The position numbers and the translations under genes are program-made. The notes beneath the pieces were generated by a model, which was given only the letters and a program-made list of their open reading frames with translations, ran no database searches and was not told where the DNA came from. A DNA stretch of 20,257 nucleotides from a virus: positions 1-20,257 of the IMG/VR virus record IMGVR_UViG_3300005588_000108, one strand, 5' to 3'. Positions 2,009 through 19,957 of this stretch are shown here, piece after piece. Position 1 is the first letter of the stretch. Each line of letters begins with the position of its first letter.

Positions 2009-3595
2009 ATGGCAGAGCCAAAGAAACTCACACCAGAGCAGATTCTCAAACGACAGAAACTAGCTCAGTCCCGCAAAGAAAACTTCCGTGACTTGTACGA
2101 AGATGCGTACGAGTTTGCATTACCTCAACGTAATCTATACGACGGCTACTACGAAGGTAAGACCGGTGGTCAGAAGAAGATGAGCCGAGTATTTGACTCG
2201 ACAGCTATCAATTCTACCCAACGCTTTGCTAACCGTATGCAGTCTGGCATTTTCCCGCCACAGCGTAACTGGTGTAAGTTAGAGCCAGGTAACGAGGTTC
2301 CACCTGAGCGTAAACTTGAAGTACAGCAGGCGCTTGATGTATTCAACGAGAAGATGTTTGATGTACTCAAGCAGTCTAACTTTGACATTGCGATCGGTGA
2401 ATTCTTATTAGACTTGTCAGTTGGCACAGCAGTTATGTTGGTTCAACCAGGTGACAACTTAACCCCTATCAACTTCATCCCAGTGCCTCAGTACCTTGTG
2501 GCATTCGAGGAAGGCGCAAATGGTCAGGTAGACAATGTTTACCGTCGCATGCGTATCAAGGGTGAGTCTATTAAGCAGCAATGGCCTGATGCAGAGATCA
2601 GTGCTGAGTTGCAGCGAATGATTGACGACAAGCCAACTGAAGAAGTTGATTTGATTGAGGCAACAATCTACGACTACGATCGTGGCGATTATTGCTATCA
2701 CGTTATTCATCCTAAGAGCAAAGACGAATTGGTTTACCGTCGTCAGAAGACTAGCCCTTGGGTAGTCAGCCGCTTTATGAAAGTTGCTGGTGAAATCTAT
2801 GGTCGCGGCCCAGTGATTACTGCGCTGCCTGACATTAAGACCCTGAACAAGACGCTTGAGCTTCTGTTGAAGAATGCGAGTCTTGCAATTACGGGCGTGT
2901 ACACAGCAGCCGACGATGGCGTATTGAACCCGCAAACAATACGAATCGTTCCTGGCGCGATCATACCTGTTGCTCGCAATGGTGGCCCACAAGGTGAATC
3001 ATTACGCGCTCTACCAAGAGCAGGTGATTTCAATGTAAGTCAGATTATTATCAATGACTTACGAATGAATATTAAGAAAACACTTTTAGATGAGTCACTA
3101 CCACCTGACAACATGTCTGCTCGTTCTGCGACAGAAGTTGTTGAGCGTATGAAAGAGTTGGCTCAGAACTTAGGCTCTGCGTTTGGTCGATTGATCAACG
3201 AGACAATGGTTCCATTAGTTGCTAAGACATTAGAGGTTATGGATCAAAACGGCATGATCACTCTGCCGCTGAAGGTCGATGGTCTTGAAGTTAAGGTAAC
3301 ACCAACTTCTCCTCTGGCATCTGCTCAGAATATGGAAGAAGTCAACAGCATCATGCAGTTCGCTCAAGTCGCACAAGCAATGGGGCCTGAAGGGCAACTT
3401 GCTATTAAGACAGGCGATATGATTGACTACATTGCAGACAAGATGGGCGTACCAGCGTCTATTCGTACAACGCCTATGGAACGTCAACAGATGATGCAAG
3501 AAGCGCAGCAGATGGCAATGGCAGTCCAGCAGGCGCAAATGCAAGGTGCAGCTCCACAGCAAGCAGCAGAACAAACGGCTGAAGGAATGATGTAA
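2009..3595 (+). CDS. Head-to-tail connector (portal) protein, T7 gp8-like
   Basis: A 528-residue protein, close in size to T7 gp8 (536), of the podovirus head-tail connector family. The N-terminal region includes ENFRDLYEDAYEFALPQ (24-40) and a later FDSTA...RFANRMQSGIFPP block. Both are typical of this family, where the portal begins with a helical segment and a conserved FP.R.W stretch (here FPPQRNW). The dodecameric ring forms the DNA entry vertex, binds terminase during packaging and later carries the tail. The C-terminus (from about 490) is Gln/Met/Ala-rich, as in the crown or barrel region of many portals. A good AAGGAG ribosome site at 1997-2002 overlaps the previous stop and supports the ATG at 2009. 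The stop overlaps the next start by one base. Confidence 0.95.
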   Translation: MAEPKKLTPEQILKRQKLAQSRKENFRDLYEDAYEFALPQRNLYDGYYEGKTGGQKKMSRVFDSTAINSTQRFANRMQSGIFPPQRNWCKLEPGNEVPPERKLEVQQALDVFNEKMFDVLKQSNFDIAIGEFLLDLSVGTAVMLVQPGDNLTPINFIPVPQYLVAFEEGANGQVDNVYRRMRIKGESIKQQWPDAEISAELQRMIDDKPTEEVDLIEATIYDYDRGDYCYHVIHPKSKDELVYRRQKTSPWVVSRFMKVAGEIYGRGPVITALPDIKTLNKTLELLLKNASLAITGVYTAADDGVLNPQTIRIVPGAIIPVARNGGPQGESLRALPRAGDFNVSQIIINDLRMNIKKTLLDESLPPDNMSARSATEVVERMKELAQNLGSAFGRLINETMVPLVAKTLEVMDQNGMITLPLKVDGLEVKVTPTSPLASAQNMEEVNSIMQFAQVAQAMGPEGQLAIKTGDMIDYIADKMGVPASIRTTPMERQQMMQEAQQMAMAVQQAQMQGAAPQQAAEQTAEGMM

Positions 3596-6644: not shown

Positions 6645-8626
6645 TGACTAAATACGTTGATATTCAGACTAACTTTACCAGTGGCGAGATTGACCCGTTA
6701 CTGCGTTCTCGTGTGGATATTAAGCAGTACCAGAATGGTGCTAGCAAACTAACTAATGTATTAGTACAGCCTCAGGGTGGTGTTAAGCGTCGCCCAGGTC
6801 TAAAGCATATCTATGAGCTAGATGCAGCTTACAATCCTGATGATGGTATTCGTTTAGTACCATTCGAGTTCAGCACATCAGACAGCTATATGTTGATGTT
6901 TACTGCTGGCAAAATGCACGTTATCCGTGACGGTGCTGTTATTGCTAACATCAATGGCTCAGGTAATGACTACGCAACCATTAGCGGGTTGACTTCAGCC
7001 ATGCTAGATACCATGTGCTGGACTCAGTCTGCTGACACACTGATCGTAGTTCATCCTGACATTCAGCCACTCAAGATTGTTCGTGGTGCTACCAATGCTG
7101 ACTGGACTGTTAGCTCGATTACTTTCGACAGCATTCCTCAGTACGCATTCACTATATCTACTAGCAACCCATCAGGCACCATTACTCCTGATGAGATCAG
7201 TGGCACTGTAACGATTACGGCTTCATCTGGCGTATTTAACTCAGGCCATGTCAATCAGTACATTAACGCATCACCTCAGGGTCGTATGCGTATTACTGAG
7301 TATGTTTCTAGTACTTCTGTTAAAGGTGTTACTGAGGTTCCATTCTTTGACACCAATGCCATTGCTAATGGCAACTGGGAGCTAGAAACAGGTTACGAAG
7401 ACGTTTGGTCTAGCTCTAAAGGTTGGCCTCGTACCTGTACTTTCCACGAGGGTCGTTTGTACTTTGGTGGTAGTAAGAGCCGTCCTACAACCATTTGGGG
7501 TAGTAAGATCGGCTTCTTCTTTGATTTCCAACCTGTAGAGGCTTATGACGACGATGCTGTGGAAGCGACGCTCGATACGAACACGCTCAATACTATCATC
7601 GACATCATCTCAGGCCGCGACCTACAAGTTTTCACGAGTGGTGGTGAATTCTTTATCCCGCAGGATACGCAACAGCCTATTACTCCTACTAACTTTTTTG
7701 TTCGTACTGGTACTCGTAATGGCGTAAGAGAAGGTATCCGAGTTGTTCAGCTTGACTCAGGCACAATCTATATTCGTCGCCAAGGTAAAGCATTGTCAGA
7801 ATTCCTTTACAGTGATACCACTCTGGCTTATGTAAGCAACTCAATATCACTATTATCGTCACATTTGTTGAAAGGCCCTAAAGAGATGGCTATCCGTAAG
7901 GCTACGTCTACGGATGAGACTGACTTGTTGCTTATCGTTAATGAAGACGATGGATCAATAGTGGCTTACAGCTTGTTCACTCAGCAGCAGGTAGTTGCCC
8001 CATCTGAGCTAATTACTGATGGTCAGTTTATCGAGGTTGCTGTTGACGTAACTGATATTTACGTTATCACTAAGAGAACATTTGATGGCACTGATAAATT
8101 CTTTGTTGAGAAATTTGACTCTACTGTTTTCACTGATTGCGCTTTCACTGGTGGCGCTGCTTCTGGTGCCACTTCACTTCCTCACGAAGACGCATCGTTA
8201 AATGTGATTGCTGACGGTAACGTGCTAGGTGATGAGACAGTTAGCTCTGGCGCTATTACATTTGACCGAGCATCTACTTCTAGCTATGAAGTTGGATTGC
8301 CATTCAATGTTGAAGTAACCACTATGCCAGTAGAAAAAGACATTGGCACAGGTACTCGATTAGGCTTTAAGAAGCGCATTGTTGAGGTAAATGCAGTTGT
8401 TGATTCAACCCAGCATTTGTCTGTTAATGGTGTATTGCTGCCAATTAGAGCGCTTGATACAGCAGGAACGCTAGATTCTCCAACGTCTGAATTTACGGGG
8501 ATCAAGACCCTGTATGGCAAGCGCGGCTACAGTCGTGAAGCTAAAGTATCAGTTACACAAGAATATCCACTCAAGCTCACATTATTGGGTCTTGAGTACA
8601 AGGTCGCTACGAGCGGAGGTTCATAA
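6644..8626 (+). CDS. Tail tubular protein B (nozzle), T7 gp12-like
   Basis: A 660-residue protein (T7 gp12 is 794). The N-terminus is diagnostic: NFTSGEIDPLLRSRVDIKQY (10-29) followed by KLTNVLVQPQGGVKRRPG. This opening is found in the podovirus tail-nozzle family. Further support comes from FEFSTSDSYMLMFTAGKMHV (75-94), a TFHEGRLYFGGSKSRPTTIW block in the propeller-like core and TDLLLIVNEDDG near 425. Six subunits form the distal tail tube that closes the virion and opens upon contact with the cell. The gene starts by one-base overlap with the gp11-like gene. A GGAGG site at its 3' end serves the next gene. Length and motif order indicate an intact gene. Confidence 0.93.
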   Translation: MTKYVDIQTNFTSGEIDPLLRSRVDIKQYQNGASKLTNVLVQPQGGVKRRPGLKHIYELDAAYNPDDGIRLVPFEFSTSDSYMLMFTAGKMHVIRDGAVIANINGSGNDYATISGLTSAMLDTMCWTQSADTLIVVHPDIQPLKIVRGATNADWTVSSITFDSIPQYAFTISTSNPSGTITPDEISGTVTITASSGVFNSGHVNQYINASPQGRMRITEYVSSTSVKGVTEVPFFDTNAIANGNWELETGYEDVWSSSKGWPRTCTFHEGRLYFGGSKSRPTTIWGSKIGFFFDFQPVEAYDDDAVEATLDTNTLNTIIDIISGRDLQVFTSGGEFFIPQDTQQPITPTNFFVRTGTRNGVREGIRVVQLDSGTIYIRRQGKALSEFLYSDTTLAYVSNSISLLSSHLLKGPKEMAIRKATSTDETDLLLIVNEDDGSIVAYSLFTQQQVVAPSELITDGQFIEVAVDVTDIYVITKRTFDGTDKFFVEKFDSTVFTDCAFTGGAASGATSLPHEDASLNVIADGNVLGDETVSSGAITFDRASTSSYEVGLPFNVEVTTMPVEKDIGTGTRLGFKKRIVEVNAVVDSTQHLSVNGVLLPIRALDTAGTLDSPTSEFTGIKTLYGKRGYSREAKVSVTQEYPLKLTLLGLEYKVATSGGS

Positions 8627-9141: not shown

Positions 9142-10823
9142 TGGCATTACCTATATATAGAAAGCGTGGAATTATGTATGCAGATTTGCCTCGTGTTGAG
9201 ACTGCAAACTTAAAAGAAGGCGCTCGTGGTTTTGAAAGTATTGATCGCAAATTAGATCAATTATCCTCATTTATTAAACGTGAAGGTACTCAATACGCTA
9301 AAGAGCAGGCTATGCAGTATGCAGCTCAGAACCCTGTTACAGAGCAGCAGATTGCTGAAGCAGTAGCGTCTAAAGGTGAAGGCAAATCTTGGTTGTCAGC
9401 TCTTACTGGTGGCAATGTCTACGATGAGACGTTGCAAGCTGCTCAAGGCTCAATGCTAGCTAATCAGTTGTCTATCGAGGCACAAAAGAAGTTTCGTGAG
9501 CTTCAGGTAATGGCTGAGAATAATCAGCTTAGCTTTGATGACGCTCAGGTTGAGATTCAAGACATCATTGATGGTTATGCCACAACGATTAGTGCATTTA
9601 GCCCAGAAGCCTCTATCAAAGCTCGTGCTTCTATGGCTACTGCTGGTAATGGTGTACTTAAGTCTGTAGCTGAGAAACAGTCTAAAATCTTCGCAGCAGC
9701 ACAAGCAGCTAAGCTTGATGAGGACATTTTCTCAGTTAAGCGTTTTGCTGAAGATGAGTTCTATCGTGGTGATTCATGGAATCCTACAACTCAAACCTAC
9801 ATTCGTGCAGAAGATCGCATTGCGGCAATCTTTGAGCCAATCGAGTCCCAAGCAATGGCTATGGGCCAAGAGGGTCGTTTTCCTAAGCTGCTAGAAGCTA
9901 AACGTGAAGCTCGTATCAACGGTGTTACTCGTGGTTTGTTAGACGAGAAGTTTGCAGCTTCTCCAACTAAAGCTTACAAGCGCATTATTAATGGCGACTT
10001 AGGCGAATATGAAAGCTCTTGGGCAATGATGTCTGATGATGAGCGAGACAAGGTTAAGTCTAAGTTCCTTAAAGAAATTGCTGATCGTAAGAAATTCTCA
10101 GATCAAGCAGAAAAAGAACAAGATGAAACTTACAAGAAAATCTCTGTTGATTTGATGCGTGAAGCTGAAAACGCTGATCCTGCTCGTCAAAGAGAGATTG
10201 CTAATGAATTGTGGCAAAACAATTCTGATGCTGGCTCAATGGTTACACCTCTTGGCTACCTACAGAAACTATCTGAAGGCAAGATTGGTGAAGAGCTAGA
10301 TAACGATGAATTAATCTTTGAGCTAGAGACTGCTGTTGATGATGGCATGATGAATGATGAGTCTATTAAGTATCTTGCTCAGAATAATCAAATCAACTGG
10401 ACTCAGGCTCGTAAGTTACAAGATCGCATTGTAAAGACTGAGAACCGTGAGGTTCGTGCAGCAACTCGTAGAGCTGTAGCTGAGATTGACCAGTTAGATG
10501 TTAAGCCTGCTATCAAGACTCGCATGAAGGCAGAAGTTAAGGCTGAGATTTTTAAGGCTGAGCCTGGTGAAAATCTACAGGCATTGGTTGACGGTGCTGT
10601 TCAAGCACAAGTCACATCAATCCAGAATCAGCGAGCTGAGTCAGCTAAGCGTAGAATTGCAGCAGCACTCAAGAAAGTTCCTGAGTTCTCAAACTTAGAT
10701 GATGATGAGTTAGAAGCAAAAGCATCTCAGATTATGCAGAACCCTAGCTTGATTCCAATGATTAAGATGGATGATGGCGTTAAGCGTTCTATTGAGCGTT
10801 CACTAAAGACACTGGATCGATAA
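9141..10823 (+). CDS. Internal virion protein, T7 gp15-like
   Basis: A 560-residue, almost entirely helical and highly charged protein (T7 gp15 is 747). It has no signal peptide or membrane segment. N-terminal residues LPRVETANL and a FESIDRKLDQLSSFI helix (30-44) resemble openings of gp15-like internal core proteins. Long stretches of Glu, Lys, Gln and Ala, such as AEKEQDETYKKI near 330, suggest helical hairpins or repeats like those of the T7 core. In T7, gp15 forms the periplasmic tube of the ejection apparatus with gp16. Assignment rests on gene order, length and composition; sequence motifs are weak. It begins and ends in TAATG overlaps, with an AAGG site before its start. Confidence 0.78.
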   Translation: MALPIYRKRGIMYADLPRVETANLKEGARGFESIDRKLDQLSSFIKREGTQYAKEQAMQYAAQNPVTEQQIAEAVASKGEGKSWLSALTGGNVYDETLQAAQGSMLANQLSIEAQKKFRELQVMAENNQLSFDDAQVEIQDIIDGYATTISAFSPEASIKARASMATAGNGVLKSVAEKQSKIFAAAQAAKLDEDIFSVKRFAEDEFYRGDSWNPTTQTYIRAEDRIAAIFEPIESQAMAMGQEGRFPKLLEAKREARINGVTRGLLDEKFAASPTKAYKRIINGDLGEYESSWAMMSDDERDKVKSKFLKEIADRKKFSDQAEKEQDETYKKISVDLMREAENADPARQREIANELWQNNSDAGSMVTPLGYLQKLSEGKIGEELDNDELIFELETAVDDGMMNDESIKYLAQNNQINWTQARKLQDRIVKTENREVRAATRRAVAEIDQLDVKPAIKTRMKAEVKAEIFKAEPGENLQALVDGAVQAQVTSIQNQRAESAKRRIAAALKKVPEFSNLDDDELEAKASQIMQNPSLIPMIKMDDGVKRSIERSLKTLDR

Positions 10824-11926
10824 TGGAAGACAACTTAGACAGCTTCATTATGAAGGATTGGGAACGGTCTATTGGCCTTAGTGCTGAGACTGATGGTGTT
10901 CGTGATCCTGAGTCAGTATCAATGGAAGGTATTGAAACGCCAACTGATGAATCAGTGGGTGGCTATTTAACCAATCTTGGTAAAACTTGGGCGCAAATGT
11001 TTCGTGGATATACGGCTGCTGGAGCAGGCGCTTTAGGTGAGACTGAGCGTTTAATCCAAGGTATTGGTGAAGTTATTGGTCGTGAAGGTGATGAGTCAGC
11101 AAAAGATGCTTTCATGCGCGGCATACAAGAAGAGACTCAATTCTGGACAACAGAGGATGTAGCTAAGATGTTACCTGATGTACCTGGTGTGGAGCCTGGT
11201 GAGCTACAAATGGCAGAACAGATGGGTGAGATGATTGGCCCAACTGGTGCGCCTTTATGGATTAGCAAAATGCTAGGCGTAGCTACTCGACCACAAAAAG
11301 CTGTTGGCATGGGTGTTGGCACTGCAATGGCTTCTGAAGATGCAGCAGGCGCTTCTGACAAATCAGCAATTATTGATGAGCTATATCAAGACTTTGCTAT
11401 ATCAGAAGGTAATGGAGACACAACTGGCGCTGCACCTACTGGTAAACGTGGTCTTACTACAAGACTTTACAATGCCATGAAGAAAAAGCATGGCAATATT
11501 TCTGAGGAAGAGGCTAGCAAGCTTTACCTAGGCGAGGCTTACGACAAGTTTACGGCTGACTTAGCTGGGTTTGATCAGCTTCCTAAAGAGGCACAAAAAG
11601 GTATATTGGACGCTGCGTACAACATGGATTTCAATAAGATGTTGAAATTCAAAAACTTTGCTAAAGCTGTAGCGGCTGGCGATGTTGATGGTGCATTCAA
11701 GAACTTGCTAGATACAGCAAATATCAATGGTCAATCATCTAAAGGTTTGGCTAAGAGACGAGCTGAGTCATATAACATGGCTAGCCCAAGCTCTCCAATA
11801 ACTTCTGTAGAGCAGGATGCTAATGGAGAAATCCGTTACATGAAGGGTAATAATGTATTCTTCAGCTACACACCTCGCAAGGGAAAACATAAGTCCTCGG
11901 CTGCTGGCACAATAGGTATTAAATAA
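10823..11926 (+). CDS. Virion-associated muramidase with T4-lysozyme-like domain
   Basis: A 367-residue protein in two parts. Residues 1-180 are acidic then glycine/alanine-rich and of unknown fold. Residues about 185-320 resemble T4-type lysozyme (GH24-like). Glu195 in FAISEGN, then TTGA and T206 in PTGKRGLTTRLYN, occupy the places of the catalytic Glu and Thr. The C-terminal lobe is clear: QLPKEAQKGILDAAYN (252-267), a KNFAKAVAAGD helix, then LLDTAN (295-300) and KGLAKRRAESYN (307-318). The domain should cleave peptidoglycan locally as DNA is delivered. The gene lies between gp15-like and gp16-like genes, joined to both by TAATG. It therefore appears to supply the wall-degrading function that T7 places at the N-terminus of gp16, using a different enzyme fold. 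The Asp of the usual triad is not certain (Asp199 is a candidate). Confidence 0.8.
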   Translation: MEDNLDSFIMKDWERSIGLSAETDGVRDPESVSMEGIETPTDESVGGYLTNLGKTWAQMFRGYTAAGAGALGETERLIQGIGEVIGREGDESAKDAFMRGIQEETQFWTTEDVAKMLPDVPGVEPGELQMAEQMGEMIGPTGAPLWISKMLGVATRPQKAVGMGVGTAMASEDAAGASDKSAIIDELYQDFAISEGNGDTTGAAPTGKRGLTTRLYNAMKKKHGNISEEEASKLYLGEAYDKFTADLAGFDQLPKEAQKGILDAAYNMDFNKMLKFKNFAKAVAAGDVDGAFKNLLDTANINGQSSKGLAKRRAESYNMASPSSPITSVEQDANGEIRYMKGNNVFFSYTPRKGKHKSSAAGTIGIK

Positions 11927-14760: not shown

Positions 14761-14825
14761 TGGTTAACAAGCGCATGATTTTTAAGTATATTACGGGGCA
14801 GGAAGGAGATACTTATGCCTATTGA
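14760..14825 (+). CDS. Possible 21-residue ORF in the gap before the fibre gene
   Basis: An ATG overlaps the preceding TAA by one base, exactly as at eight other junctions here. It opens a 21-codon frame that overlaps the fibre start by 11 nt. No strong Shine-Dalgarno precedes it, and the same bases hold a good promoter, so it is most likely a remnant or chance frame. Confidence 0.15.
   Translation: MVNKRMIFKYITGQEGDTYAY
14764..14792 (+). promoter_or_regulatory. Candidate sigma70-type promoter for the fibre and adhesin genes
   Basis: TTAACA (14764-14769), a 17-nt spacer and TATATT (14787-14792) each match five of six consensus bases. Transcription would begin near 14800, just before the AAGGAG site (14803-14808) of the fibre gene. 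That leaves a very short leader. T7 has phi17 at the corresponding place. It lies in the only other appreciable gap of the late region. Confidence 0.6.
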
Positions 14826-16290
14826 CATTTCAGACGTAACACGCCGAGTGGTCTATTCTGGCTCTGCCGGAGTAGGGCCATATTCCTTCTCGTTTGAGAT
14901 TCTCAATGAGAACGACATTGCGGTTTACGAAAACGACACACTCCTGACGATTACGACAGATTACACCGTTACCATTAATGCTGACGGTACTGGCTCTGTA
15001 ACCCTGGTCTCAGCCTCTAGCTCATCAGATACCGTAGCTATCTTGGGTAACAAAGGTATTGAGCGTCTTACAGACTTCGTAACAGGTGGTGACTTATTCG
15101 CTACCAGCCTGAATGACGAGTTTGATGCTCAGACCATCTTTGCCCAGCAGAACGCTGAAGCAGTATCTCGTGCGATCAAGATTCCACCTCAGTCTAGCTT
15201 AAGCATTGACACTACTCTGCCAGTACCTCAGAGCAACTACATCCTTGGTTGGAACGACACAGGTGATGCGATCCTGAACCTTCAGGAGATTGGCTCTTAC
15301 CAGGGTACTGATGCAACAACGACTACGGCTAACTACAATAACCGTGACATCGTTAAAGACTCATCTAACTCTAACGTCTACATCTGTACAGCAGCCTCTA
15401 CTGCTGGCACATTATTGACCAATACCTCTTATTGGGCTTTATTGGTAGATGCAGCAACAGCTACTTCTAGCGCTACAGCAGCAGCCGCTAGTGCTACAGC
15501 AGCCGCAGCTAGTGAGACAGCCGCAGCAGCCTCAGAAACGGCAGCAGCAGCCTCAGAGAGTGCAGCCGGCACATCAGAGACCAATGCAGCCTCTAGCGCA
15601 TCAGCAGCCTCTACAAGCGCCAGTAATGCAGCCTCTAGTGCTTCAGCAGCTTCTAGTTCTGCAAGCGCAGCTTCTACCTCAGAAACCAATGCAGCGGATA
15701 GTGAAACAGCGGCGGCAGCAAGCGAGTCAGCAGCAGCAACTTCTGCCTCTAATGCAGCTACTTCTGCAACCAGCGCAGCTAGTTCAGCAACCACAGCGAC
15801 TACTCAGGCATCAGCAGCAAGTACTTCTGCGACTAACGCAGCGACTTCTGCAAGTGCAGCGGCTACTTCAGCTTCTAATGCGTCTACCTCTGAGAGCAAT
15901 GCGGCTACATCAGCTAGCGCAGCTCAAGCAGCATTGGACTCGATTGAGAACTTCTACTTAGGTGCTTCGGCTACTGCGCCTACTGTTGACGACAATGGCG
16001 ATCCATTAGCAGCAGGTGATTGGTACTTCAATACCACTGATAACCTGACCTACATCTATAACGGTTCTTCTTGGCAGGTAACAGTTACCAGCACAAGCGG
16101 TTTACTACAGGCATCTAACAACTTGTCTGATCTAAATTCAGCGGCTACTGCATTAACAAATCTTGGCTTAACTGCTACAGCAACAGAACTTAACTACACC
16201 GATGGCGTTACTTCTGCCATCCAAACTCAACTCGACACTAAAGCGTCAACTGGTAAGGCCATTGCTATGGCTATCGTATTCGGAGGCTAA
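14815..16290 (+). CDS. Tail fibre protein with T7 gp17-type N-terminal domain
   Basis: A 491-residue protein. Residues 1-150 are the T7 gp17-type tail attachment domain: VVYSGSAGVGPYSFSFEIL (12-30), then YTVTINADGTGSVTL and GGDLFATSLNDEFD (91-104). Residues about 165-213 form a small module (RDIV..SSNSNVYIC..SYWALLVDA) similar to chitin-binding-like modules of phage fibres. Residues 219-372 are 22 uninterrupted Ala/Ser/Thr heptads, probably a trimeric shaft. A conserved ALDSIENFYLGASA..GDWYFNT segment follows (373-412), then TELNYTDGV and a short KAIAMAIVFGG end. There is no large receptor-binding head, so host recognition may depend on the genes downstream. The AAGGAG site 6 nt before the ATG supports the start, and the GGAGG near its stop serves the next gene. 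Confidence 0.9.
   Translation: MPIDISDVTRRVVYSGSAGVGPYSFSFEILNENDIAVYENDTLLTITTDYTVTINADGTGSVTLVSASSSSDTVAILGNKGIERLTDFVTGGDLFATSLNDEFDAQTIFAQQNAEAVSRAIKIPPQSSLSIDTTLPVPQSNYILGWNDTGDAILNLQEIGSYQGTDATTTTANYNNRDIVKDSSNSNVYICTAASTAGTLLTNTSYWALLVDAATATSSATAAAASATAAAASETAAAASETAAAASESAAGTSETNAASSASAASTSASNAASSASAASSSASAASTSETNAADSETAAAASESAAATSASNAATSATSAASSATTATTQASAASTSATNAATSASAAATSASNASTSESNAATSASAAQAALDSIENFYLGASATAPTVDDNGDPLAAGDWYFNTTDNLTYIYNGSSWQVTVTSTSGLLQASNNLSDLNSAATALTNLGLTATATELNYTDGVTSAIQTQLDTKASTGKAIAMAIVFGG
15469..15930 (+). repeat. 22 tandem 21-nt (7-residue) degenerate repeats in the fibre shaft
   Basis: The coded protein reads as 22 consecutive heptads (fibre residues 219-372) with no insertion or deletion. 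The pattern is S-x-x-x-A-x-x with Ser first in 21 units (Gln once), position 2 mostly Ala or Glu, and Ala, Ser or Thr elsewhere. SATAAAA, SETAAAA, SETNAA and SASNAA units recur. DNA copies are degenerate but share GCAGC, TCAGC and ACTTC words. Equivalent repeats are known from lambda Stf-like side fibres. Confidence 0.85.
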
Positions 16291-16293
16291 TAA

Positions 16294-16647
16294 ATGGCTG
16301 CACCAAACATTGTAAACGTAAGCACGATTACTGGTAAGACTGCGGTTCAAGCCGTAGGTACATCAGCAACTGCTATTGTCACTAACTCAGCAGCAAGCGG
16401 TAAGGTATTCAAGGTTAATGCTTTGTACGTTTCTAACGTAGATGGCACTAACAACGCTGAAATCAACGTAGACCTGTTCCGCTCATCTACTGCTTATCAC
16501 ATTGGCAAGACCATCGTGGTTCCTGCTGACGCAACTCTGGACGTGATTAGTAAAGCAATCTACCTCGAAGAAGGTGACACATTACGCTTAACCGCTAATG
16601 CTGCATCTGACCTTGAGGCTGTTTGTTCTTACGAAGAGATTAGCTAA
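16294..16647 (+). CDS. Small beta-rich protein following the fibre
   Basis: A 117-residue protein with alternating polar/apolar residues typical of a small beta sandwich. Recognisable segments are KVFKVNALYVSNVDGT (37-52), EINVDLFRSS (55-64), then TIVVPADATLDVISKAIYLEEGD and a LRLTANAASDLEAVCSYEEIS ending. Proteins of this kind, with a VPA..TL strand and an L-x-L-x-E-G-D turn, accompany tail fibre genes in many aquatic phages. I know no proven function. A fibre tip, fibre-associated cap or assembly factor are options. GGAGG (16282-16286) inside the fibre stop region is its ribosome site. The stop overlaps the first glycine-rich gene as TAATG. Confidence 0.65.
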   Translation: MAAPNIVNVSTITGKTAVQAVGTSATAIVTNSAASGKVFKVNALYVSNVDGTNNAEINVDLFRSSTAYHIGKTIVVPADATLDVISKAIYLEEGDTLRLTANAASDLEAVCSYEEIS

Positions 16648-17615
16648 TGGCTACATTTCCGGACACTACTGGTGCGTCTGGAATCTGGACGCTAAAGCAA
16701 AACAAACGCGCTGAGAAGGGTGACCACTGGCCTTCAACTTTTGTTCCTTACAATGTTGACGTGTTGCTAATTGGTGGTGGCGGCGGTGGCGGCGGTCAAT
16801 ACGATGGCTATACAGGCGGCGGTGGTGGCGCAGGTGGTTACGTCTACGCAACTTCTGTTTCTACGACAGAAGGTACTCATACTATTACTGTAGGCGCAGG
16901 TGGCGCAGGTGGTATAGGCGAAGTTGGTAGCGGTTCAAACGGTGGCATTTCTTCTGCTTTATCTCAAACCAATGCTATTGGCGGCGGTTATGGTTCCAGA
17001 GGTGGCACAGGTGGCAACGGAGCATCTGGCGGCGGTGGCTCAGCCGGCAGCAGTGGTGGCACAGGGTCACAAGGTAGCAACGGTGGCGGAGCTCAGGGTT
17101 CAACTGGTTCTCCTTATTATATTTCAAATGCCGGCGGTGGCGGTGGCTATAGTTCAGCAGGTGGAGCCGGTAATAACACCACAACAACAGGTGGCTCAGG
17201 CGGCGCAGGTGTTTCTAACTCTATAACTGGCTCAGCAGTTTATTATTGCGGTGGAGGTGGTGGCGGAGCTTCTGGTGGTGGTAGTAACTCAAGCACCTAT
17301 GCAACAGTAGGATCCGGCGGTATTGGCGGTGGCGGCGATGGTGGTCGAAGCACTACCGGCATCGGTATTGCGGCTTATACAGCACCTGAAGATGGTACGG
17401 CTAACACTGGTGGCGGTGGTGGTGGCAGTTGCGGTAGCGCATCCCCACAAGCTGTAACACCTTATGGTGACGGTGGTAATGGTGGTTCAGGCGTTGTTAT
17501 CTTGCGTATGCTTACTTCTGACTATTCAGGCACTACAACTGGCTCACCAACTGTTACAACCGATGGTAGCTACACGGTAGTTAAATTCACATCTTCTGGT
17601 TCGTATACGGCTTAA
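16647..17615 (+). CDS. Glycine-rich putative adhesin, copy 1
   Basis: A 322-residue protein. By hand count 105 residues (one third) are glycine. Residues 1-29 are a module shared with the next two genes (FPDTTGASGIWTL, RAEKGDHWP). Residues 37-288 are glycine-rich runs separated by short strands (DVLLIGGG, HTITVGAGGAGG, SITGSAVYYCGGGG, TANTGGGGGG), ending in SGVVILRM. This matches the glycine-rich domain family and recalls polyglycine-II sandwich adhesins such as T-even gp38. The last 25 residues (GSPTVTTDG..FTSSGSYTA) form a strand pair that in the family normally precedes the glycine-rich body. Receptor binding at the virion surface is inferred from composition and the position after the fibre. 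Two cysteines (201, 262) are unusual for a phage surface protein and may be buried. Confidence 0.75.
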   Translation: MATFPDTTGASGIWTLKQNKRAEKGDHWPSTFVPYNVDVLLIGGGGGGGGQYDGYTGGGGGAGGYVYATSVSTTEGTHTITVGAGGAGGIGEVGSGSNGGISSALSQTNAIGGGYGSRGGTGGNGASGGGGSAGSSGGTGSQGSNGGGAQGSTGSPYYISNAGGGGGYSSAGGAGNNTTTTGGSGGAGVSNSITGSAVYYCGGGGGGASGGGSNSSTYATVGSGGIGGGGDGGRSTTGIGIAAYTAPEDGTANTGGGGGGSCGSASPQAVTPYGDGGNGGSGVVILRMLTSDYSGTTTGSPTVTTDGSYTVVKFTSSGSYTA

Positions 17616-17625
17616 GGATTAAACG

Positions 17626-18573
17626 ATGGCAGACAATCCAAGTTCAACAGAAGCATCTGGCGTTTGGTCTTTAGACGACAACTACAATGCAGAGGCAGGC
17701 GATAACTGGCCTGCTACTCCTAGTTATATAACTGCTACTGGTGGAACCGTTACCACCGATGGTAACTATAAGATTCACACATTCACATCGTCTGGTACTT
17801 TCACCGTAACTGACGCAGGTACGATTGACCCAACTGTTGAATACTTAGTTATTGCAGGTGGTGGCTCAGGTGGTAAAGATGACAATCATGCAAACGGTGG
17901 CGGTGGCGCCGGTGGCTATCGTACATCTTATGGAACATCAGGTGGTGGAGCGTCTGCTGAATCAAGCATAACTGTAACCGCACAAGCGTACACAATAACG
18001 ATTGGCGCAGGTGGTGCAGGCTCGCCTGTAACTAATGGCAATGCTGCTCAGGGAATAGATGGAAACGCAACAACTGCATTAGGTGTTTCAACTGTTGGCG
18101 GCGGTGGCGGTGGTGGTGCTTCCAATGCCGGCAAAACAGGCGGCTCAGGTGGCGGTGGTGGTAGTAATGACACTACAGGCTCTGAAGGCTCAGGCACAGC
18201 GAATGAGGGTTATGCAGGCGGTGATAGTTTTTCTGCTTCTGAACCAACTAAAGCTGGCGGCGGTGGTGGCGGCGCAGGTTCAGTAGGAACAGCAGGTTCA
18301 TCGGGTTCATCTGGTTCTGGCGGTTCAGGTGTAGCTTCTACTATTACAGGCTCATCCGTAACTCGCGCAGGTGGTGGCGGTGGTTCATCACAAACTAGCG
18401 TGGGTTCCGGTGGCTCAGGTGGTGGTGGAGCAGGTAATAACTCTGGAAATGCAACATCTGGCACTGCTAACACCGGTGGCGGTGGTGGTGCAATAACGGA
18501 TATAGGTATTGCCGGATATTCAAGTGGCTCAGGCGGCTCTGGCGTAGTCATCATTCGTTACCAATATCAATAA
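17626..18573 (+). CDS. Glycine-rich putative adhesin, copy 2 (reordered domains)
   Basis: A 315-residue paralogue of the flanking genes. The N-terminal module (STEASGVWSL, NAEAGDNWP, residues 7-29) is conserved. Unlike its neighbours, the TVTTDGNYKIHTFTSSGTFTV strand segment lies at 41-61, directly after the module, and leads into VEYLVIAGGGSGG. That is the usual order in the glycine-rich domain family. The body follows with GGGGAGGY, YTITIGAGGAG, SVTRAGGGGG and TANTGGGGG. The protein ends just after GVVIIRYQYQ, with no C-terminal strand segment. An AAGGA site at 17614-17618 supports the start, 10 nt after the previous stop. Receptor binding is inferred. Confidence 0.75.
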   Translation: MADNPSSTEASGVWSLDDNYNAEAGDNWPATPSYITATGGTVTTDGNYKIHTFTSSGTFTVTDAGTIDPTVEYLVIAGGGSGGKDDNHANGGGGAGGYRTSYGTSGGGASAESSITVTAQAYTITIGAGGAGSPVTNGNAAQGIDGNATTALGVSTVGGGGGGGASNAGKTGGSGGGGGSNDTTGSEGSGTANEGYAGGDSFSASEPTKAGGGGGGAGSVGTAGSSGSSGSGGSGVASTITGSSVTRAGGGGGSSQTSVGSGGSGGGGAGNNSGNATSGTANTGGGGGAITDIGIAGYSSGSGGSGVVIIRYQYQ

Positions 18574-18582
18574 GGAACACAC

Positions 18583-19536
18583 ATGGCACAATTTCCAAGT
18601 ACAAGTTCTGCTTACGGTGTTTGGTCACTGAAAGAACAGCGTGATGCTGAGATGGGCGATAACTGGCCTGAACCGCCTATTCTTATTTCGTATCTCGTTG
18701 TTGCCGGTGGTGGCTCTGGTGGTTTTGTTTGTGGAGGCGGTGGAGCAGGTGGTTATAGAAACTCATATGCTTCAGAAACTTCAGGCGGTGGTGGGTCTAC
18801 AGAAACACCTTTAGCTGTAACACCCGGAACAAGCTATACAGTAACTGTTGGTGCCGGAGGTGCTGCTACTACTGTTAATGAAAGCAATAGCGGCTCAAAT
18901 TCTACCTTCGCTACTGTTACATCAATAGGTGGCGGCGGCGGTGGTAAAGTTTATTACAACAGCGGTGATGGTAAAAGCGGCGGCTCTGGCGGTGGTGGTT
19001 CTGATGCTGATGGTGCTACTGGTGCTGGCGGTTCAGGAACTTCTGGTCAAGGTTATGATGGTGGTTCTAATTTAGATAGTACAGGTGCTTTTTGGCCCGG
19101 AGGCGGTGGAGGCGGTGCAGGAGCAACAGGTGGTAATGGCACTGGCTATGTTGCAGGTAATGGTGGTAATGGTCTTGCATCCTCAATTACTGGTTCGTCC
19201 GTAACTAGAGCAGGCGGCGGTGGCGGCGGTGTTATGAGGGTTGGAGGCACCGGAACATTAGGCACAGGAGGTTCCGGAGGTGGTGGCAACGGCGGTGCAA
19301 ACGGAACAAACTGTACAGCAGGATCAGCTAACACCGGAGGCGGTGGAGGCGGTGACGGCGGTACTGCTTCAGGTTATCCACAGTCTGGATTTGGAGCAGC
19401 AGGTGGCTCTGGTATTGTGATCCTTCGTATGCCAACAGCTAACTACACCGGAACAACTACAGGTTCACCATCCGTTACAACTGACGGCTCTGATACAATT
19501 TTAACTTACACTTCTTCTGGCTCTTACACAGCATAG
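18583..19536 (+). CDS. Glycine-rich putative adhesin, copy 3
   Basis: A 317-residue paralogue with the same architecture as copy 1. It has the N-terminal module (FPSTSSAYGVWSL, AEMGDNWPE, to residue 30), then a strand ISYLVVAGGGSGG, then a glycine-rich body (GGGGAGGYRNSY, YTVTVGAGGAA, SITGSSVTRAGGGGGG, SANTGGGGGG) closing with GIVILRMPT. The C-terminal segment TTTGSPSVTTDG..TSSGSYTA (291-317) closely matches copy 1. Part of its body is nearer copy 2 (SSVTRAGGGGG, GGAGGYR.SY), so it looks like a mosaic of the two. An AAGGA site at 18572-18576 supports the start. The inferred role is host-surface binding. Confidence 0.75.
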   Translation: MAQFPSTSSAYGVWSLKEQRDAEMGDNWPEPPILISYLVVAGGGSGGFVCGGGGAGGYRNSYASETSGGGGSTETPLAVTPGTSYTVTVGAGGAATTVNESNSGSNSTFATVTSIGGGGGGKVYYNSGDGKSGGSGGGGSDADGATGAGGSGTSGQGYDGGSNLDSTGAFWPGGGGGGAGATGGNGTGYVAGNGGNGLASSITGSSVTRAGGGGGGVMRVGGTGTLGTGGSGGGGNGGANGTNCTAGSANTGGGGGGDGGTASGYPQSGFGAAGGSGIVILRMPTANYTGTTTGSPSVTTDGSDTILTYTSSGSYTA

Positions 19537-19546
19537 GTAAATAAAC

Positions 19547-19957
19547 ATGGCACATTTTGCTCGCGTTAACGCACAAGGCATCGTTACTCAAGTAATCGTT
19601 GCCGAACAAGACTTCATCGATGGTTTGACTGATGCTGATTCATGGGTGCAAACCTCATACAACACTCGTGGTGGTGTTCATTATGGTCAGGATGGTCAGC
19701 CTGATGGTGGTACAGCACTGCGTAAAAACTATGCAGGTATCGGCTTCAAGTATGACGGCGACCGTGATGCGTTCATTCCACCACGTCCATTCGCTTCTTG
19801 GAATCTGGTTGAAGAAACCTGTTGGTGGGAAGCACCGATTGCTGCTCCAGAATTAACCCAAGAGCAGCGTGATGCAGGTTCGTACTACATATGGGACGAA
19901 GATACATACCAAGCTGACAACACTCAGGGTTGGGTACTCATTGAGTCTGGAGTCTAA
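19547..19957 (+). CDS. MAHF-type small phage protein near tail fibre genes
   Basis: A 136-residue protein starting MAHFARVNAQGIVTQVIVAEQDF, an opening I recognise from small proteins of many aquatic phages including cyanophages. Other family features are SWVQTSYNTRGG (32-43), LRKNYAGIGFKYD (58-70), DAFIPPRPFASW (74-85) and a C-terminal ETCWWEAP (89-96) followed by a YYIWDEDT strand. Aromatic residues are abundant. No function is known to me. Its regular location beside tail fibre or structural genes suggests a virion component or a fibre assembly factor. The ribosome site (TAGG) is weak. Start choice rests on the conserved MAHF opening. Confidence 0.8.
   Translation: MAHFARVNAQGIVTQVIVAEQDFIDGLTDADSWVQTSYNTRGGVHYGQDGQPDGGTALRKNYAGIGFKYDGDRDAFIPPRPFASWNLVEETCWWEAPIAAPELTQEQRDAGSYYIWDEDTYQADNTQGWVLIESGV

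Follow-up and report, generated by a model that had tools for sequence, protein, structure and literature searches.

The window analysed here comes from a T7-like podovirus known as an uncultured virus record of 20,257 bases, and encodes a portal (phrog_332), a T7 capsid assembly protein (PF05396), a major head protein (phrog_3437) and tail tubular proteins, with the nearest relative of tail tubular protein B being that of Methylophilales phage MEP301 (60%). Its virion block also includes a 367-aa protein (10823-11926), probably a virion-associated peptidoglycan hydrolase, in which a domain resembling phage lysozyme is indicated by PF00959, right at its cut-off, and by phrog_31077 over residues 186-364. 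In the cassette of interest, the tail fibre gene (14815-16290) lies on the plus strand, as do all the features that follow it. The fibre has a T7 gp17-like N-terminus (phrog_1640 over residues 6-122; phrog_38058 tail fibre) and an Ala/Ser-rich shaft, and, in agreement with the preliminary description of a fibre lacking a receptor-binding head, no head domain is recognisable before its C-terminal end, ...STGKAIAMAIVFGG. Directly downstream is a gene absent from that description, encoding a 117-aa jelly-roll protein (16294-16647), termed the hub, which is the most conserved part of the cassette. Three tandem glycine-rich genes follow as slots 1, 2 and 3 (16647-17615, 17626-18573 and 18583-19536), their lengths of 322, 315 and 317 aa being as first described. 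The cassette ends with a closing gene (19547-19957), the 136-aa phrog_7759 product of which is possibly a fibre-assembly helper.

All three glycine-rich proteins match PF21722 (Gly_rich_2) well above the curated cut-off of 24.3 bits (60.2, 81.4 and 42.8 bits for slots 1-3; E-values of 3.7e-16, 1.3e-22 and 8e-11), and they diverge chiefly between their glycine runs. They share an N-terminal module, as the preliminary description noted, with invariant residues P5, A10, G12, W14, L16, A22, E23, G25, D26, W28 and P29. This module is a tag of about 29 residues, with the body beginning directly after the final WP, and it occurs in three distinct types, alpha, beta and gamma, which had gone unmentioned. 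Tag clustering assigns slot 1 of the window to gamma (MATFPDTTGASGIWTLKQNKRAEKGDHWP, 16647-16733), slot 2 to beta (MADNPSSTEASGVWSLDDNYNAEAGDNWP, 17626-17712) and slot 3 to alpha (MAQFPSTSSAYGVWSLKEQRDAEMGDNWP, 18583-18669). The corresponding bodies occupy 16734-17612, 17713-18570 and 18670-19533.

A tblastn search of phage records with the adhesin itself returned no match with the BLAST low-complexity filter on, hence the baits were instead the hub and closing gene. At least 585 stretches of viral contigs encode relatives of the hub, of which the best 80 were retained. The placement of these genes near tail genes extends to all hub-carrying relatives examined, in which they directly follow the hub, beside fibre genes. 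All 37 distinct loci bounded by both hub and closing gene have one to three such genes after the hub: one in 25 loci, two in six and three in six, although one of these last six has only a single tagged gene. Most three-slot loci were picked up through tag patterns, a selection bias from which five in the hub-selected, bounded sample are free (L049, L051, L053, L065 and L085). Three slots are not universal, as there are also two-slot loci: L043, with alpha and gamma, L031, and L042, which has hybrid tags. The hybrids of L042 (2832-4648) are alpha-like or gamma-like in their first half and beta-like in their second. The phages bearing the cassette are mostly aquatic. No cultured phage with the tag trio was found in the phage collection searched, and the tag itself had no match in phage records even at an E-value of 10, a search that is weak for 29 residues. 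Neither hub nor tagged genes were present among the genes read behind the fibre of MEP301, the nearest isolate, and scanning a genome collection with the hub found only three MAG contigs, none with a clear trio.

The first 30 or so residues of the post-hub genes follow a common pattern, S/T-A-x-G-x-W-x-L-...-G-x-x-W-P, which is degenerate in many single-gene loci. Within it, the consensus is AYGxWxLxDxRDAxMGDNWP for alpha, ASDVWxLxDxYRAEAGDNWP for beta and ASGIWTLKKxKRAxQGDNWP for gamma. When the tags of three-slot loci were clustered on a 20-residue core, blind to locus, all 25 loci (24 non-redundant) had one alpha, one beta and one gamma under both average and Ward linkage; complete linkage fuses beta with gamma, leaving one of each in just 11 of the 25. 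Labels dealt at random gave a mean of 5.6 such loci out of 24, with a maximum of 14 in 20,000 trials, whereas assigning each tag to its nearest neighbour, leaving out one locus at a time, recovered one of each in 24 of 24. A held-out scan with a gamma-only DNA pattern yielded five more distinct loci in which a trio could be seen (L163, L166, L174, L176 and L177), and all five likewise had one tag of each type. Position alone is insufficient to explain this regularity, because four gene orders occur: alpha-beta-gamma (15 loci), gamma-beta-alpha (five, including the window), beta-alpha-gamma (three) and alpha-gamma-beta (two). Tag protein identity is around 46-49% between types and 70% within a type, with the type retained in distant phages. 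The types also differ in the mean net charge of their helix, which is basic in gamma (+2.9) and slightly acidic in alpha (-0.6) and beta (-0.9), although the net charge of a whole trio differs between loci (mean +0.9, standard deviation 2.5).

The peptide at the end of the window's fibre, GKAIAMAIVFGG (16252-16287), or a close variant, terminates otherwise different fibres immediately upstream of the hub in 61 of 87 loci, counted with a strict motif, and a similar fibre end is present in the cultured phages HTVC033P, DSL-LC04 and Bellamy. The AF2 model of the hub is a confident all-beta structure (pLDDT 91.8; 82 relatives in the alignment). Its many PDB matches are middling jelly rolls, including the KHP40 trimeric cement protein, Ena pilins, nucleoplasmin and needle knobs, and assign it to no family; its viral fold relatives include annotated virion structural proteins in several cyanophages.

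The slot-2 protein was also modelled with AF2 (pLDDT 92.6; 75 sequences). The body is predicted to share the fold of solved glycine-rich phage heads, matching in VIA both the Bxb1 tail-tip protein (9d93 chain Q; Z 15.2, 3.0 A, 188 residues, 30% identity) and the proposed receptor-recognition head of the Pam3 fibre (7yfw; Z 15.1, 2.6 A, 183 residues, 30% identity, with a further match at Z 14.7), in line with the proposal that these proteins are fibre-associated adhesins. The next structural group, the ALK/LTK glycine-rich domains, scores far lower (Z about 6.9). By analogy with Pam3, the slot-2 body may contain packed polyglycine-II helices. In this model the tag forms an extended stretch, a helix (residues 16-24) and a loop, predicted with less confidence (block means of 54-76) than the body. 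The bodies are related by circular permutation: an edge hairpin is on the N-terminal side in slot 2 (about 17731-17805) and at the C-terminus in slots 1 and 3 (17532-17609 and 19435-19530), with permutation alignment Z-scores against slot 2 of 8.1 and 6.4, respectively, unreached by 2,000 shuffles each.

Among relatives, the bodies are far more diverse, comprising glycine-rich domains alone, fn3 followed by glycine-rich domains, one to five copies of Laminin-G, or beta-propeller repeats. Each tag type bears very different body folds, and therefore the tag, not the body, must set position. The uncoupling is quantitative: for 69 proteins from 24 loci, the closest tag outside the same phage belonged to the same type in 68 cases, whereas the closest body outside the same phage was attached to the same type in only 20, against a null of 23.0 +/- 4.3 (P=0.79). 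Mean body identity was 0.406 for same-type and different-type tags alike, with composition inflating the alignments of glycine-rich bodies equally in both. Individual exchanges are visible where one body occurs on two tag types: the alpha body of L129 corresponds to the beta body of L021 (91% over 374 aa), the alpha body of L146 is 82% identical to the beta body of L133, the beta body of L136 is about 80% identical to the gamma body of L130, and the gamma body of L138 is about 74% identical to the beta body of L148. The gamma slot of L007 has a body architecture seen in the beta slot of both the window and L006. Between the window and L006, DNA identity is around 100% in each inter-gene and tag block, the beta tag differing by one base, and about 55% in each body. 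These phages have unrelated capsids, the window's head being T7-like and that of L006 HK97-like (phrog_371), and with the glycine-rich genes excluded from the comparison, the only ones they have in common among the proteins compared are the hub (99%) and closing gene product (92%). The contrast between DNA and heads in L006, together with the body swap in L007, indicates at the sequence level that the cassette moves between unrelated phages, and bodies between slots. Judged by such comparisons, the tag trio, the uncoupling of tag from body and the transfer of cassettes between phages are all demonstrable.

The explanation we consider probable is that the fibre tip has three non-equivalent docking positions, each holding an exchangeable adhesin, rather than the genes being interchangeable copies. 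The headless fibre would terminate in its conserved peptide, and the jelly-roll hub probably caps it; we infer the placement of the hub between fibre and adhesins from the order of the genes and the conservation of the fibre's end, and likewise infer docking, heteromeric stoichiometry and receptor binding. The adhesins would dock through their short N-terminal tags (an extended stretch, one helix and the end GDNWP), with one type per position. The tags most likely also recognise one another, because a single hub gene product cannot by symmetry make three different sites; the basic gamma helix, set against slightly acidic alpha and beta helices, would fit such mutual recognition. The outcome would be a heteromeric (alpha:beta:gamma) head, with bodies that touch the host surface and pass from slot to slot and phage to phage via recombination at the conserved junctions, and single-slot relatives may represent a homomeric ancestral state. 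More tentatively, the heteromer may be obligate, with three adhesins seated at the fibre tip by 29-residue tags on the jelly-roll hub, any body fitting any of the three sockets, in a natural plug-and-socket arrangement for receptor binding common to phages with unrelated capsids. The option of a mixed tip complex, raised in the preliminary description, fits the occurrence of tags as an alpha, beta and gamma set. Its proposals of fibre-associated adhesins and of a mixed tip are retained, while its suggestion of an interchangeable reservoir is not supported as worded, nor do the matches obtained establish membership of the T-even gp38 type.

The main rival is that the tagged proteins make three separate homotrimers, which the tags attach at three different sites on the virion or tail, as a branched set resembling the CBA120 tailspikes. 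This would account for the slot specificity of the tags, and it suits both the match of the body fold to the homotrimeric Pam3 fibre head (PMC9608196) and the implausibility of Laminin-G and glycine-rich bodies mixing in one body trimer. However, the trimerising helical bundle of Pam3 gp24 is much longer than the tag, single-slot loci combine the same hub with one tag, as though the same site were used, and a second attachment gene is not evident in the cassette, making separate homotrimers unlikely.

Two further alternatives are each highly improbable. Firstly, interchangeable copies might compete for one site, generating a mixed virion population or the host-range reservoir originally envisaged. 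That bodies differ and are exchanged is compatible with such competition, as are the single-slot relatives, which show that one tag can suffice; nevertheless, the tags are strictly slot-specific, with the bodies alone exchanged, and competitors would not be expected to keep a one-of-each trio over more than two dozen loci in four gene orders. Secondly, alpha, beta and gamma might be co-inherited ancient paralogues, with tags marking homologous-recombination junctions devoid of docking specificity, as the extreme conservation of junction DNA between some phages, third codon positions included, would suggest, yet types only around 46-49% identical to one another are kept in distant phages (70% within type), and a flank alone would not preserve type-specific residues such as those of the basic gamma helix. 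Ancient paralogy by itself would likewise yield one of each tag; it is the free exchange of bodies that argues for functional slots.

CBA120 and other Kutterviruses, G7C and K1-5 likewise carry multiple receptor-binding proteins, in which the N-terminal docking parts are conserved and the C-terminal parts swapped, but docking there is by folded XD or anchor domains on large tailspikes. To our knowledge, none of these has a one-of-each trio of paralogous 29-aa tags, nor does a hub protein consistently come before their receptor-binding proteins. The glycine-rich protein of mycobacteriophage Bxb1 (9d93 chain Q) is alike in body fold but belongs to a siphophage tail tip, and we know of no three-slot array in that phage. 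The tail fibre gp24 of cyanophage Pam3 has the same TNF-like plus glycine-rich fold and an N-terminal helical docking part; the TNF-like plus glycine-rich unit, in which 12 glycine-rich motifs build a four-layer lattice, is proposed to be the head that recognises the receptor (PMC9608196). Unlike the window's proteins, gp24 is a homotrimer from one gene with a long helical bundle, and lacks tag types and a separate fibre or hub.

The polyglycine-II adhesins of the T-even gp38 type (S16, T2 and PP01) are also small proteins encoded behind the fibre gene, combining N-terminal attachment with a variable receptor-binding part in which hypervariable regions separate glycine-rich motifs, and gp38 chimeras have been made by swapping the N-terminal part of around 113 residues (PMC12892980). 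However, gp38 is a single gene whose product sits directly on gp37, whereas the cassette has three genes whose products bear three kinds of 29-aa tag and bodies that do not share a fold, with a jelly-roll hub gene set between them and the fibre. The window adhesins lack an N-terminal attachment region of gp38-like length (about 110 residues) and have, in searches at E-values up to 1, no Pfam or PHROG match to gp38, matching only PF21722, phrog_2295 and, weakly for slot 2, phrog_9239. The gp38 chains of S16 were absent among the Foldseek and VIA matches listed, which is no exclusion. The sharing of host-recognition modules by distantly related phages of Alteromonas is comparable to the spread of the cassette, although those modules pair a tail fibre with its cognate chaperone, and slot tags are not described in the part of that account drawn on here (PMC10579305). 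No description of a three-tag array was found in the largely open-access literature searched.

Modular receptor-binding proteins are well known, and fibre tips are usually assumed to be homotrimers. In this cassette the docking address is cut to about 29 residues and comes in three versions that exclude one another, and its uncoupling from the binding domain is demonstrable. The preferred reading of three docking positions, if correct, would explain host-range reshuffling in many uncultured aquatic phages and make the cassette a natural setting in which to test for heteromeric fibre tips. Tag and hub alone would then suffice to recognise receptor-binding genes in metagenomes.

Some relatives have additional genes within or around the array. 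In L127, L131 and L148, a closing-type (phrog_7759-like) gene separates the beta and gamma slots and does not come at the end of the array. An extra, untagged glycine-rich gene of about 290-330 aa occupies the interval between fibre and hub in L021 (3955-4827), and likewise in L129, L143 and L146, with the same kind of ending as the tagged bodies. Between its beta and gamma slots, L021 also has a 191-aa gene (7314-7889) that by eye resembles 2OG-Fe(II) oxygenases; DSL-LC04, HTVC033P and Bellamy, too, have annotated 2OG oxygenase genes close to the hub. On a Phycisphaerales MAG contig (L162), a frame by eye resembling a GIY-YIG-type endonuclease (2671-3303) lies among the hub-associated genes, and the body proteins have the look, by eye, of RCC1-type repeats.
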